A DNA stretch of 51,435 nt from positions 1 to 51,435 of the forward strand of contig JAOPWJ010000199.1 of NCBI GenBank assembly GCA_025965715.1, in the 5' to 3' direction. A model generated the notes under the pieces. The model did no database searches and was not told where the DNA came from. It worked only from the letters and a program-made list of their open reading frames with translations. Of the stretch, positions 24,747-33,617 are shown piece after piece. The DNA comes from Blastococcus sp. (GTDB lineage: Bacteria; Actinomycetota; Actinomycetes; Mycobacteriales; Geodermatophilaceae). Made by a program: the position numbers and the translations under genes. Each line of letters opens with the position of its first letter. Position 1 is the first letter of the stretch.

Positions 24747-27788
<3,042 letters not shown>

Positions 27789-28128
27789 GAGGGGCTGCCC
27801 TGCCACTCTTGGCGAGCTCGGGGCGGTGCCTGGGAGGGGGCCGCATCGCGGGTATCGCTCAGTTGCCCGGGTAGGACTGTGACCACCGGTCGGGGTGGGT
27901 GCCTTCACTCGCGCGAGGGCGTCGTCGGCGGCCATCGACGCGGACCCACTGGTTGCCCGCGGACCGGTCCAGCAGTTTGCGCACGATGGAGCCCACCAGC
28001 AACGCGCCGCCACGGTGTCGATCGGCAGCTCGGTGCCAGCCTGGCGCAGCGCGCCGAGGCCTGGTGGCCGCAGTACCGCGGCCGACTCGAGCGCGTGGCG
28101 CAGGAGGCCGGTTCGGCGGCGAGCGCGC

Positions 28129-28332
28129 TCAGCTGGCCGCGAGCTCCGGGCTGAGCCAGGTGTGGTGGTCGGCGACCGCACGGCCGTCGGGCAGCAGCTC
28201 GCCGCCGTCGTCGAAGAGGACGACGCCGTTGCACAGGAGGCTCCACCCCTGCTCCGGGTGGCTGCTCACGACCGCGGCGAGGTCACGCGCATTGCTGCTG
28301 GCGTCGGGGCAAGGCGTTCCGTGGTGACACAT
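28129..28332 (-). CDS. DUF5999-like small protein
   Basis: MCHHGTPCPDASSNARDLAAVVSSHPEQGWSLLCNGVVLFDDGGELLPDGRAV. Confidence 0.8.
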   Translation of the reverse strand: MCHHGTPCPDASSNARDLAAVVSSHPEQGWSLLCNGVVLFDDGGELLPDGRAVADHHTWLSPELAAS

Positions 28333-28634
28333 GGCAGTCCATCCGTTTCGGCATCCCGGCGCTCGCCGGAGAATTACGTACCGTGCTAGTCCGATTACCT
28401 TTCGGCAAGTCTGCGGCGGCACTGGAGCCGGGATGGGTGACTGACGTCACCTGATCACCCGAAGGGGTCGTCAGCTCCTGCCAACGCTGCCACACGTCCG
28501 TGCCCGACCGGCGTGTCGGCTCATGAGCCACATATGGACAGGCACCGTTGCCGCGCATTCCTGCGTAGATTCGCGACGTCCACGGAGTGCGCCGCATGGC
28601 GACCCGTTCAGGCGCTGACCGCGGAGGATGGCCA

Positions 28635-29894
28635 ATGGTGCTGACGACCTCGAAGCTCGCGGCGGGGGAGTGGAATGCCGCCGAGGATTTCCAGCCGATC
28701 ACCTACGAGAAGGTCATCGGGCTCAATAACCTGCTCAGCATCGCCTGGTTGAGCCAGGGGCTGACCCTGGCGGCGGCCGTGGCCAGAATTGTACTGCCGG
28801 AAGGCGCGGGAACCGGATTCCTCATCGCCCCCGACCTGTTGCTCACGAACAACCACGTGCTACCGGACGCGGACGTCGCCCGGACATGCACTGTCGAATT
28901 CAACTATCAGGCCAACTGGACGGGCAGCCTCGAGCCGGTCAAGCGTTTCACCGTGGATCCGGACCACTTCCGGACGTCGGTCGAGCTGGACTACACGATC
29001 GTCCGCGTGAAGGAGAGCCCGGGTGATCTGTACGGCTACATCGACCTGGCCACCCGGGCCGACGTCGCGGTCAACGACTTCGTCAGCATCATCCAGCACC
29101 CCATGGGTGGGCTGAAGCAGGTCTGTCTCACCGACAACAAGGTCGCCGCAGTCTTCGGCCACCTCGTGCAGTACTCGACCGACACCGAGCCCGGCTCCTC
29201 GGGATCGCCGGTGTTCAACCAGAACTGGCAGCTCGTGGCGCTGCACCATCGCGGGGGCAACCTCCAGGGGCCCGACGGCACCAAGTACTTCAGCAACGAG
29301 GGCATCTCCATTGGCTCGGTCTACCGCGACGCGGCGTCCTTCCTCGGGGTGCCCGACGCGCTGTACAACCTCGCCTTCGGCGACCTCCGGGCGATCCTGA
29401 TCAACCTCGTCGACGTGGTCGATCCACCGACCGACCCGCACGCCGTCGCGGCCGGCCTGCTACGCACCCAACCCCGCTTCTCCTCGAGTCTGGACGACTG
29501 GGCCACGCTCAACGCGGCGGCCCCGGACGCACGGGCCGCCGGTCTGGCGGCCGCCGGCATCGCGACGGGTGTGGCATTGCGGCAGTGGGCCCGCACCTCC
29601 GGACACGAGTCGGTGGCGACGGCGGCGACCCCCGATCCCTCGCCGGCGGAGGCTCTCTACGCACTGGCCGCGCCGTTCAAGGGCACGGGGCAGCTGCCGA
29701 GCGACGTCTACGCAGCCGTGTTGACAGCCCTACGCGCCGCCCCGGACATCCTCGCGCCGATCGTCGCCGCGTCGCCCGCCGCACCGGGCGGGTCGGCCAC
29801 GGTCACGAGTGCGCACGCCTTCGTCCTCGGCGTCATGGCCGGCGCCCGGGCCTACGACGGGCCCGTTGCCCAGGCGGCCGGTACGCCGTCCTGA
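28635..29894 (+). CDS. Trypsin-like serine protease with C-terminal helical extension, predicted cytoplasmic
   Basis: Catalytic triad context: LLLTNNHVLPD (His), ELDYTIVRV (Asp), TEPGSSGSPVFN (Ser). No signal peptide. N-terminal EKVIGLNNLLSIAWLSQGLTLAAAVARI helical segment. Confidence 0.85.
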   Translation: MVLTTSKLAAGEWNAAEDFQPITYEKVIGLNNLLSIAWLSQGLTLAAAVARIVLPEGAGTGFLIAPDLLLTNNHVLPDADVARTCTVEFNYQANWTGSLEPVKRFTVDPDHFRTSVELDYTIVRVKESPGDLYGYIDLATRADVAVNDFVSIIQHPMGGLKQVCLTDNKVAAVFGHLVQYSTDTEPGSSGSPVFNQNWQLVALHHRGGNLQGPDGTKYFSNEGISIGSVYRDAASFLGVPDALYNLAFGDLRAILINLVDVVDPPTDPHAVAAGLLRTQPRFSSSLDDWATLNAAAPDARAAGLAAAGIATGVALRQWARTSGHESVATAATPDPSPAEALYALAAPFKGTGQLPSDVYAAVLTALRAAPDILAPIVAASPAAPGGSATVTSAHAFVLGVMAGARAYDGPVAQAAGTPS

Positions 29895-29969
29895 CCCCGG
29901 CCCGCGGGCCGCCGATCCGGTCCAGCCGGCGTGCCGCCGACCGGGACGGTATCCCCGACAGCGAATGCC

Positions 29970-29998
29970 TTGACGCCGTTGATGCCCGGCGCTACGTT
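29970..29998 (+). promoter_or_regulatory. Sigma70-like promoter for the precursor-peptide operon
   Basis: TTGACG (29970-29975) - 17 nt - TACGTT (29993-29998), about 80 bp upstream of the precursor ATG. Confidence 0.5.
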
Positions 29999-30080
29999 CC
30001 AGAAATCCCGGTACCCGGGCATTCCGATACCGATACGCGGCTGACCGTCAATGGCTCGCGTGTCCATTCAAGGGGTCCTC

Positions 30081-30272
30081 ATGTCGGAACCATCCGATCA
30101 GGCGTCGAAGCCATCGGTCGACATCACCGTCTCCAATCTCGACGTTCCCCGGGAGAATCTCCGGGAAACGCTCATCGCAGCGATCGACGCCGAGCTCGAG
30201 CGGCAGGAGACACAGGAAATGATGCCCATCGATGTTCATTTGAAGGGCAGTACACACCTCAAGTCGTCGTGA
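30081..30272 (+). CDS. Putative RiPP precursor peptide (63 aa)
   Basis: MSEPSDQASKPSVDITVSNLDVPRENLRETLIAAIDAELERQETQEMMPIDVHLKGSTHLKSS. SD-like AAGGGG 5 nt upstream of the ATG. Stop overlaps the GTG start of the radical SAM gene. Confidence 0.8.
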   Translation: MSEPSDQASKPSVDITVSNLDVPRENLRETLIAAIDAELERQETQEMMPIDVHLKGSTHLKSS

Positions 30273-31492
30273 GCGCGTGCGCCGTGCCGGTCGCGGGCCG
30301 GCCCGACGTGCCGGCGGATCCTGTGCCCTTCGGATTGTTCGTGCTCAAAGTTGCGTCGCGCTGCAATCTTAATTGCGATTACTGCTATATGTACAACAAG
30401 GCCGACTCGAGCTGGAGGAACAAGCCAGCGATCATGTCCGAGGAGACCTTCGACGCAACCCTCCTGCGGATCCGCCGACATTGTGCGGCCACCGGCCAGC
30501 GGAGCGTTCGGCTGGCGTTCCACGGAGGCGAACCGACCATGGTCGGACCGGCCAGGTTCGATGCCTGGTGCACCCGGGCCCGGTCGATGCTCGCCGACGT
30601 CGAGGACGTGGGCCTGGGCATCCAGACCAACGGCACTCGGATCGATGCTGTGTGGGCGGAGGTCTTCGCCCGGAACGATGTGCGGGTGGGCGTCAGCGTC
30701 GACGGCGTCCGCGACGAGCACGACCGGCACCGCGTGGACCATCGCGGCCGCGGGTCCTACGACTCGATCGTGCGGGGCCTCGGAGAGCTCGGGGCGGCGG
30801 GGGTGACGTGGGGCGTCCTCTCGGTGATCGAGCCGGGCCGTGACCCGTTGTCCACTCACCGGCACATCGCCGGCCTGGGGGCCGATTTCGTCAACTACCT
30901 CTGGCCCGACCACACCCACGACACGATCGCCGGTGTACGCGCCCGCTTCGGCCGCACCCCGGTCGCGGATTACCTGATCCCGCTGTTCGACCAGTGGTTG
31001 GAGTCGGGGGGCGCCGGCCCACACGTGCCGGAGTTCTGGAACGTCGCCCGGCTCGTGCTCGGCGGGCGCAGCGCGCACGAGAACTACGGCAACGAGCCGT
31101 CGCGCTACGTCTTCGTGGAGACCGACGGGGCGATCGAGGGCCTGGACGTCCTGCGGATCTGCGGCGAGGGAATGGGCCACACCGGCCTCGACGTCCTCTC
31201 GTCGGACTTCGCGGAACTCGCGGCGTCGGGGTCGTTGTCGGCCGCGATCATCATGCGCGGCCTGCCGTTGCCCTCTGGCTGCGCCTCGTGCGTCGAGCGC
31301 ACCACGTGCGCCGGGGGTTACGTGCCGCACCGGTATTCGCGCGCGCACGGTTTCGACAGCCCGAGCGTGTGGTGCGCCGACATCCTCGAGCTGTTCGCGC
31401 ACGCCCGGGCACGGATGGGGGTGACGGCGGCGGAGACGGCGCGGCGGCGCGACGAGCGCGCCCGCCGAATCGCGGCCGTGGCGCGCGGGTGA
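30269..31492 (+). CDS. FxsB-type radical SAM/SPASM peptide maturase
   Basis: KVASRCNLNCDYCYMYN (CxxxCxxC); LAFHGGEPTM; SPASM-like GCASCVERTTCAGGYVPHRYSRAHGFDSPSVWCADILELFAH. Confidence 0.92.
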   Translation: MSACAVPVAGRPDVPADPVPFGLFVLKVASRCNLNCDYCYMYNKADSSWRNKPAIMSEETFDATLLRIRRHCAATGQRSVRLAFHGGEPTMVGPARFDAWCTRARSMLADVEDVGLGIQTNGTRIDAVWAEVFARNDVRVGVSVDGVRDEHDRHRVDHRGRGSYDSIVRGLGELGAAGVTWGVLSVIEPGRDPLSTHRHIAGLGADFVNYLWPDHTHDTIAGVRARFGRTPVADYLIPLFDQWLESGGAGPHVPEFWNVARLVLGGRSAHENYGNEPSRYVFVETDGAIEGLDVLRICGEGMGHTGLDVLSSDFAELAASGSLSAAIIMRGLPLPSGCASCVERTTCAGGYVPHRYSRAHGFDSPSVWCADILELFAHARARMGVTAAETARRRDERARRIAAVARG

Positions 31493-32661
31493 GCGTTCCG
31501 GCGGAACTCCTGACCGCCCTGGGTGGCGCCGGCTTCGCCGGTCCGGAGAAGGAGATCGACGACGACCTGCTCGACCTCGTCGTCGGCGGGCACGCGCGTG
31601 CGGTCACCCGCTCGTTCCTCACAACGCACGGCGACCAGGTGGGCCGGTCGCCCGGCCTGTCCGAGGTGCTCGAGTCCTTCGCATGCGCGCGTCCCTCGTT
31701 CGACCTCGCCTGGGATGTCAGCGCCGGCGCCCTGTCGACGACGTTCCGACGGCCGTGGGGCCCCGCGGCGCAGGTGGCGGCGGTCGAGTTCGCCCTGCAT
31801 CTGCACGAACGCGGCGCCGCAGGGTCGTGGGAGTGCCGCTTTCCTGAGCCGGTCCGGGTGCGAGCCGGCCGTTCCCTCCTCCCGCCGGCCGATCGCCTGC
31901 GCGTCACCGCGAGCGGGGGGCGGCTGGCCGTGGATGCGTGGCTGGGCGGCCGGCGCGAGCCCGGTACCGAACCCCTCGTGCAGGAGCAGGGGATCACGTT
32001 CCTGCCGCGCGCGGCGACCCGCGGACCCGCCTTCACGGGCACCTTCGCCGACCGACGACGAACCGACGGAAGCTGGAACGGACTGCCGCCACCGCTGGAC
32101 GCGATTCCCGAGACCGTGGTGGCCGCCCTGCACAGCGCACTGGGGATGCTCGACCGGCATGCGCCTCAGTACCACCGGTGGGTCACCCGCGCCGTCCGCT
32201 ACGTCGTGCCGTTGACGCCGGTCCCCGGAGTGCAGATCAGCAGCAGCACGGAGGAGACTCCCGCCACCGTGAGCCTGACCGCGCGTCCCCACGCAGCGGA
32301 GCTGGCCGAGACGCTGGTGCACGAGTCGGCGCACCAGTACCTGCACATGCTCGCCCGCCTCGGCCCGTTGGACGACGGCAGCGACCCGACGCTCTACTAC
32401 TCACCGCTCAAAGGAACCGGACGACCGGTCCGCGGGATCCTCGTGGCCTACCACGCCGTCGGCAACATCCTGCTGTGGACGCGTGCGGCCCTGGCCAACG
32501 GGACCGAGGACCCAGCCTACGTCGAGCGCAATGCGGCCGAGCTGCCCGGGAAGTTGCAGCTCCTCGACGAGGCGCTGGCCACCACCGACTCGCTGACCCC
32601 GCTGGGTCTCCTGCTCTGGCGACCGCTCCGCACGTCGCTCGGGGACCTGGCCCTGACCTGA
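31489..32661 (+). CDS. HExxH-motif putative peptide-modification protein (aKG-HExxH-type peptide beta-hydroxylase-like)
   Basis: ELAETLVHESAHQYLHMLARLGPL...YYSPLKGTGRPVRGILVAYHAVGNILLW; GTGA overlap with the radical SAM gene. Confidence 0.85.
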   Translation: MSVPAELLTALGGAGFAGPEKEIDDDLLDLVVGGHARAVTRSFLTTHGDQVGRSPGLSEVLESFACARPSFDLAWDVSAGALSTTFRRPWGPAAQVAAVEFALHLHERGAAGSWECRFPEPVRVRAGRSLLPPADRLRVTASGGRLAVDAWLGGRREPGTEPLVQEQGITFLPRAATRGPAFTGTFADRRRTDGSWNGLPPPLDAIPETVVAALHSALGMLDRHAPQYHRWVTRAVRYVVPLTPVPGVQISSSTEETPATVSLTARPHAAELAETLVHESAHQYLHMLARLGPLDDGSDPTLYYSPLKGTGRPVRGILVAYHAVGNILLWTRAALANGTEDPAYVERNAAELPGKLQLLDEALATTDSLTPLGLLLWRPLRTSLGDLALT

Positions 32662-32663
32662 CG

Positions 32664-33617
32664 TCAGAGCTTGCGGAGCAGGACCCGCCGGACGGCGTGT
32701 TCCGCGGACTTCTGCAGCACCAGCCGCGCCCGCGAGCGGGTCGGGGCGATGTTGCTGCGCAGGTTGGGGCCGTTGACGGCCTCCCAGATGCCGAGCGCCG
32801 TCTCCCTGGCCTGGTCGTCGGAGAAGCCGGCGAAGCGGTGGAAGTAGGCGGTCGTGTCCTGGAACGCCGTCCGGCGCAGGGCGAGGAAGCGCTCCACGTA
32901 CCACCGTTGGATGTCGGCCTCGGCCGCGTCGACGTAGACCGAGAAGTCGAAGAAGTCCGAGAGGAACACCTCGGGTGCCGTTCCGTCCGTGCGGCGACCG
33001 GCCTGCAGCACGTTGAGACCCTCGAGGATCAGGATGTCGGGCCGGTCCACCGCCTGCCGGGCACTGGGCACGATGTCGTAGGACCGGTGGTCGTACACCG
33101 GGGCGAAGACCTCTTCCCGCCCCGACTTCACGTCGGCCAGGAAGCGGAGGAGCGCCCGCCGGTCGTAGCTCTCCGGAAAGCCCTTGCGCCCGAGCAGTCC
33201 ACGGGACTCCAGGACGGCGTTGGGCTGCAGGAACCCGTCGGTGGTGACGAGGTCGACCCTCGGCGAGCCGGGAGCGGCGCTCAGCAAGGTCTGCAGGAGC
33301 CGCGCCGTGGTGCTCTTGCCGACGGCGACGCTGCCCGCGACCGCGATCACGAACGGCACCTTGGCGGTCGTGTCGCCGAGGAACTCGCTCTGCGCCGCCC
33401 ACAGCCGGCGGCTGGCGGCCACGTGCAGGCCCAGAAGCTCGGCCAGCGGCAGGTAGACCGTCCGCACCTCGTCGAGGTCGATGCGGTCGCCCAGCGTGGC
33501 CAGGTCCCGCAGTTCGGCCTCGTCGAGCGGCAGGCGTGATCCCACGGCGAGGGCCCGCCACGACGCGCGGTCGAACACCGCGTAGGGCGAGATGGAGCTG
33601 CGTGTCCCGACCGTCAC
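32664..33617 (-). CDS. coaA: Type I pantothenate kinase
   Basis: [70 protein letters not shown]. Confidence 0.97.

Follow-up and report, generated by a model that had tools for sequence, protein, structure and literature searches.

The window analysed here, a contig of 51,435 nucleotides from Blastococcus sp. (JAOPWJ010000199.1), carries an island of four consecutive, intact open reading frames on the plus strand: in order, a protease, a small peptide, a radical S-adenosylmethionine (SAM)/SPASM maturase and a putative α-ketoglutarate (aKG)-HExxH hydroxylase. Our analysis suggests that the island is a horizontally acquired system for a triceptide-type ribosomally synthesized and post-translationally modified peptide (RiPP), in which the peptide would receive two His-x-Lys cyclophanes, be hydroxylated in its core and be freed of its leader; we give this reading a probability of about 0.72. 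Judged by sequence, the parts belong to known families and it is their combination that appears to be new. The island and its genes are as follows.

About 28485..32662 (4178 bp), no strand: acquired island, delimited by blastn against 16 relatives, bounded by the region upstream of the DUF5999 gene and by the coaA 3' end
28635..29894, plus strand: P0001, serine protease of 419 amino acids (Pfam Trypsin_2, 3.5e-29, residues 59–203), with an ATG start behind a GGAGG ribosome-binding site
30081..30272, plus strand: P0002, RiPP precursor of 63 amino acids, MSEPSDQASKPSVDITVSNLDVPRENLRETLIAAIDAELERQETQEMMPIDVHLKGSTHLKSS, with a predicted leader at residues 1–46
30219..30269, plus strand: predicted core of P0002, MMPIDVHLKGSTHLKSS, following Glu46 (from the sequence, the ChlB, YhhB and HaaB precedents and the Rhizobium core repeats)
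30269..31492, plus strand: P0003, radical SAM/SPASM maturase, with CNLNCDYC at residue 32 and auxiliary-cluster Cys at residues 338, 341, 347 and 369
31489..32661, plus strand: P0004, putative aKG-HExxH-type peptide β-hydroxylase, with HESAH at residue 278 (TIGR04267, 5e-27)

Peptide, maturation enzymes and protease

The maturase P0003 matches the cyclophane-forming families: its best NCBIfam model is TIGR04269 (FxsB; 1.6e-88), followed by YhhB (9.9e-83), and its best solved relative, homologous over the full radical SAM length, is the radical SAM domain of Chlorogloeopsis ChlB (PDB 9gm3; E 1.6e-54). P0004 scores 95 bits against TIGR04267 (cut-off 40), and ChlH is retrieved at 1.3e-88 by a profile containing P0004. 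Its AlphaFold model, which is confident only at residues about 205–390, superimposes on ChlH (PDB 8s5f) at Z 21.6 and on SjiH (22ob) at Z 19.6, with the next match at 6.0; P0004 is thus probably an aKG-HExxH peptide β-hydroxylase with the ChlH fold. The ChlB/ChlH pair is reported to combine a cyclophane synthase with an aKG-dependent hydroxylase of His and Asp on the cyclophane scaffold (Morishita et al. 2024, as summarised in PMC12636437). A preliminary description had recognized the biosynthetic make-up of the cassette (peptide, radical SAM, HExxH and no transporter), which we confirm; its further suggestion that the island is undescribed is not supported as far as the enzymes go, both being homologous to known proteins, namely ChlB, ChlH and the FxsB/YhhB maturases.

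Enzymes that form three-residue cyclophanes bond the aromatic ring of residue i to the β-carbon of residue i+2, and YhhB, HaaB and ScaB link His C2 to the Cβ of Arg or Ala at i+2 (PMC11002830). The precursor P0002, for which the ATG at 30081 (preceded by AAGGGG) is a better start than 30051, contains the aromatic-x-x core motif expected of such a substrate: it lacks Trp, Phe and Tyr, the two His are its sole aromatic residues, and His-Leu-Lys occurs twice within its last 11 residues, a repeat found in 6e-4 of shuffles of its own composition. Because both His sit in His-Leu-Lys, we predict two His-x-Lys cyclophanes, His53-Lys55 and His59-Lys61. At the edge of the predicted core a Glu directly precedes a Met (QE|MM).

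The protease P0001 is nearest to the Spl/glutamyl endopeptidase (S1B) family, its PDB sequence matches being SplE (3.8e-12) and several glutamyl endopeptidases. Its catalytic residues are likely His74 and Ser189, with the Asp of an LDYT motif (residue 119) as the third, and Thr184 and His204 occupy what we take to be the V8-type Glu-specificity positions; trypsin-fold sequence, catalytic residues and Thr/His specificity residues, which make up the S1B signature, are all present. A C-terminal extension follows the Trypsin_2 domain. By hydropathy only, there is no signal peptide or membrane segment. P0001 is therefore predicted to be a cytosolic protease that prefers Glu and cleaves after it. 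None of its relatives was found in viral contigs. On the Sinorhizobium meliloti plasmid pCpl (L163:1-6846), a P0001-like trypsin, a CHAT-domain protein and an S8 peptidase are clustered, an arrangement that resembles a conflict locus with several proteases.

Homology and motif logic together suggest an order of events. P0003 would first join each His of P0002 to the β-carbon of the Lys two residues on (His53-Lys55 and His59-Lys61), giving two three-residue His-x-Lys cyclophanes; P0004 would then act on the cross-linked product, β-hydroxylating at least one core residue in the way that ChlH modifies His and Asp; and P0001 would cut the leader after Glu46 to release MMPIDVHLKGSTHLKSS, a cleavage site favoured by Thr184/His204 and by the Glu that stands before Met both here and in the core repeats of Rhizobium lusitanum. 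Because there is no exporter here or in the Rhizobium cassettes described below, the product probably either functions intracellularly or exits through an unlinked pathway; the missing transporter and a protease that has no signal peptide favour an intracellular role.

Acquisition of the island and its setting

The island was most probably not inherited with its neighbours. In blastn comparisons with 16 relatives, homology ends at 28482–28491 (about 28483) and restarts at 32660–32668 (about 32662), and in 15 of the 16 the flanks lie just 19–71 bp apart; these breaks place the island at about 28485–32662, a span containing just the four genes. Among 92 genomes of the same family with both genes on one contig, gcvP and coaA are at most 8.3 kb apart, and within the genus the gap is 0.55–2.8 kb (in most cases about 1.04 kb), whereas in our contig it measures 4.88 kb. 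Of the 112 genomes of the family, none of the other 111 encodes a close relative of P0003; the best match is 35% identical (G027). The empty site and the missing maturase relatives support horizontal acquisition. Codon adaptation agrees, at 0.43–0.655 for all four island genes and 0.665–0.797 for ten other genes of the window.

The preliminary description had argued for acquisition from a low guanine-plus-cytosine (GC) content at 30121–30240, and had called for the interval comparison and codon analysis just given, both of which bear it out. Its count, 69 of 120, is exact; as evidence it is weak, since that stretch covers the peptide gene only, the one gene that is markedly GC-poor (57%), and the whole island stands at 69.8%, the remainder of the window at 72.1%. 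We therefore rejected GC alone as proof; codon adaptation and the empty site are the better evidence. The island encodes neither an integrase nor a transposase, and a search of its ends for repeats revealed no convincing attachment repeat or target-site duplication. Contamination is unlikely, because the flanks on both sides in this contig match the genus at 89–93% protein identity; a misassembly at the island is a residual possibility.

The gene arrangement reported earlier proved accurate: all four same-strand frames lie between gcvP/DUF5999 and coaA, the HExxH gene stops 2 bp from the stop of convergent coaA, and the island holds no transporter gene. The peptide/radical SAM and radical SAM/HExxH gene pairs each share 4 nucleotides (GTGA), and these overlaps make translational coupling of the three genes likely. 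No Rfam family matched across 27700–33000, and a sigma-70 promoter scan gave no score above shuffled sequences. The neighbours, both core genes outside the island, are:

28129..28422, minus strand: left neighbour, DUF5999 gene (PF19462, 1.7e-28), conserved in relatives
32664..33617, minus strand: right neighbour, coaA, type I pantothenate kinase (TIGR00554, 1.9e-129)

At this very DUF5999/coaA junction one relative (G033; L149:1264-3501) instead has a single, different gene, encoding 745 amino acids and, by eye, a spermidine-synthase-like membrane protein; the junction may therefore be a hotspot of gene gain. In most relatives of the genus the gcvP–DUF5999 spacer (27789–28030 in the window) is roughly 300–500 bp longer.

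Related cassettes and known systems

In a tree of 61 maturases, P0003 and the maturases of two conjugative Rhizobium plasmids (R. lusitanum p_2 and R. ruizarguesonis p4; 51% and 49% identical to P0003) form a clade with support 100/99, separate from the actinobacterial FxsB-type, the cyanobacterial ChlB-like and the fused Bacteroidota enzymes. Both Rhizobium cassettes run precursor, radical SAM, HExxH, protease, have no exporter at their loci and are annotated only as hypothetical, radical SAM or HEXXH. The genes annotated as hypothetical (L031:6736-7878 and L032:5998-7896) look like multi-core RiPP precursors, of 380 and 632 amino acids, with 8 and 13 H-x-Q-[TN]-H-S-[ES] cores in which His is the sole aromatic residue (giving 16 and 26 core His, respectively). 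In R. lusitanum, all seven MHDQ[TN]H copies have Glu just before the Met and Glu at the core end. These cassettes thus resemble ours in sister maturases, HExxH partner, protease and His cores with a T-H step, and differ in their multi-core precursors and in the protease, which is NAL1-like and downstream rather than V8-like and upstream. Sinorhizobium chiapasense pA (L160:8001-8364) carries a frame-split remnant of this NAL1-like protease with no maturase nearby.

A plasmid of Rhodococcus sp. DMU1 (L059:6589-10325) likewise combines a small peptide (..PYDKHTSNHLRN..; motifs YDK..HLR), a radical SAM gene, a HExxH gene (31.5% identical to P0004) and an adjacent protease gene; there, however, the protease is a caspase on the opposite strand and the maturase is only 33% identical to P0003. 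In another relative (G723; L107:5930-7421), whose peptide carries SYYKISYYKISYYK, a precursor with three SYYK repeats lies beside a radical SAM gene with its frame broken by one TGA, so that this cassette is perhaps decaying. The Rhodococcus and G723 maturases join in the tree, both on long branches, and we do not rely on this join. Cyanobacterial ChlB-like loci have the motifs HTK, HPK and HSK; by sequence, aromatic-x-K/R/Q/S motifs recur across the related cassettes.

The enzyme pair with an adjoining protease occurs in four cassettes, and the protease is of three unrelated kinds (V8-like, NAL1-like and caspase). Such non-orthologous replacement beside the same enzyme pair suggests that proteolysis belongs to the function of the cassette. 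When the surroundings of the comparison maturase loci were scanned for protease motifs, just two proteases turned up, at a distance of about 4 kb; the scan is a rough control only, as it also missed the two known NAL1-like proteases.

Compared with described systems, the island is closest to ChlB/ChlH, by the radical SAM homology and the shared HExxH fold, and its core recalls the His-rich cores with H-x-K/S motifs of ChlB-like cyanobacterial relatives. It differs in having the radical SAM and HExxH enzymes in two genes with a 4-nucleotide overlap instead of the fused ChlBH polypeptide, in a 63-residue precursor that has two motifs and lacks Tyr and Phe, in the adjoining V8-like protease, and in a maturase outside the cyanobacterial clade. 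The His-/Tyr-cyclophane maturases YhhB, HaaB and ScaB also act on short motifs, but the motif here is His-Leu-Lys, and PMC11002830 mentions no protease beside them; P0003 was not assigned to the YhhB family, scoring 278 against 445 bits (NF041707). The actinobacterial FxsA/FxsB/HExxH systems (FxSxx-COOH) share the best maturase match and the HExxH partner, and sometimes have a trypsin within about 4 kb. We nevertheless rejected FxSxx membership: P0002 ends in HLKSS, without Phe, and P0003 reaches 297 of the 370 bits required and lies outside the FxsB clade. A VMAP/FtsH ternary conflict system was also rejected, there being no MoxR, vWA or AP-ATPase among the only four genes from DUF5999 to coaA.

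Competing explanations and implications

Several points weigh against our interpretation of the island as an acquired triceptide system. A cross-link on a His-x-Lys motif was not found described in the literature searched; the maturase falls below both curated cut-offs cited above; the P0002 leader, although its position is suggestive, shows no significant similarity to the Rhizobium precursors (E 0.26); and the Glu specificity need not extend to the Rhizobium cassettes, because the proteases there are NAL1-like. In addition, the single-sequence structure prediction of P0001 had a predicted local distance difference test score of 34 and was discarded, and the source genome is a draft, 80% complete in 263 contigs.

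The explanations that follow are not mutually exclusive, and the first of them has the same chemistry as our preferred interpretation, from which only the fate of the product sets it apart. The peptide could be a triceptide that is secreted as an antimicrobial or a signal, with export through a housekeeping or unlinked transporter and with the protease as its maturation enzyme. Secretion is the usual fate of RiPPs, and the Rhodococcus cassette has an ABC transporter gene at a distance of about 5 kb; the absence of an exporter from the island and the Rhizobium loci, the protease without a signal peptide and the tiny size of the cassette nevertheless leave this a minority possibility, though the strongest of those considered.

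It is also conceivable, but rather unlikely, that the island is a protease-centred conflict (defence) module in which the protease is the effector, the modified peptide its regulator, inhibitor or trigger, and the proteases are interchangeable. The three unrelated proteases beside one enzyme pair, the missing signal peptide of P0001 in an island without a transporter, the occurrence of P0001-like proteases in protease-rich loci (such as that with CHAT, S8 and trypsin) and the sporadic, plasmid-borne distribution would all fit. This explanation stays alive because FxSxx peptide systems, which are related, are known to be coupled with ternary conflict systems of the VMAP type (PMC7159879); one such locus (L131) includes a trypsin. 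On the other side, the defence role raised in the preliminary description has no direct support, as PADLOC found no specific system gene (only weak generic similarity to a trypsin domain and to radical SAM viperin); no MoxR, vWA, STAND or other sensor gene lies in the island or beside the Rhizobium cassettes, and the core sequence with its flanking Glu fits simple processing. In its most specific form, which we regard as quite improbable, a β-hydroxylated His-cyclophane peptide would gate (inhibit, target or trigger) an exchangeable cytosolic protease as an intracellular, plasmid-mobile conflict system; such a module would span one short peptide to 13-core repeat precursors with the same chemistry.

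A role in metal handling, with clustered hydroxylated His binding copper or zinc, is very unlikely: His is indeed the sole aromatic residue of the core, with 16 and 26 core His in the Rhizobium precursors, but none of the four cassettes contains a metal-related gene, and a cross-link at imidazole C2 may hinder binding. A decayed or chance assembly without joint function, to which one might be led by the uniqueness of the cassette in its family, can be practically dismissed given the 4-nucleotide overlaps, the intact active-site motifs, the one clean insertion and the recurrence of enzyme pair, precursor and protease on three plasmids.

In conclusion, the triceptide interpretation unites known parts in a combination (His-only cores, a separate actinobacterium/Rhizobium-plasmid clade, precursors ranging from a short two-motif peptide to a 13-core protein, and an exchangeable adjacent protease) that was not found in the literature searched, which covered few subscription papers. 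The island defines a clade of cyclophane maturases, so far comprising one actinobacterial genome and two Rhizobium plasmids, whose core motifs would be cross-linkable only through His and whose every cassette carries a protease. It offers a short, expressible four-gene system for His-x-Lys cyclophane formation and HExxH hydroxylation on His motifs, and bears on whether triceptides act as intracellular partners of proteases.

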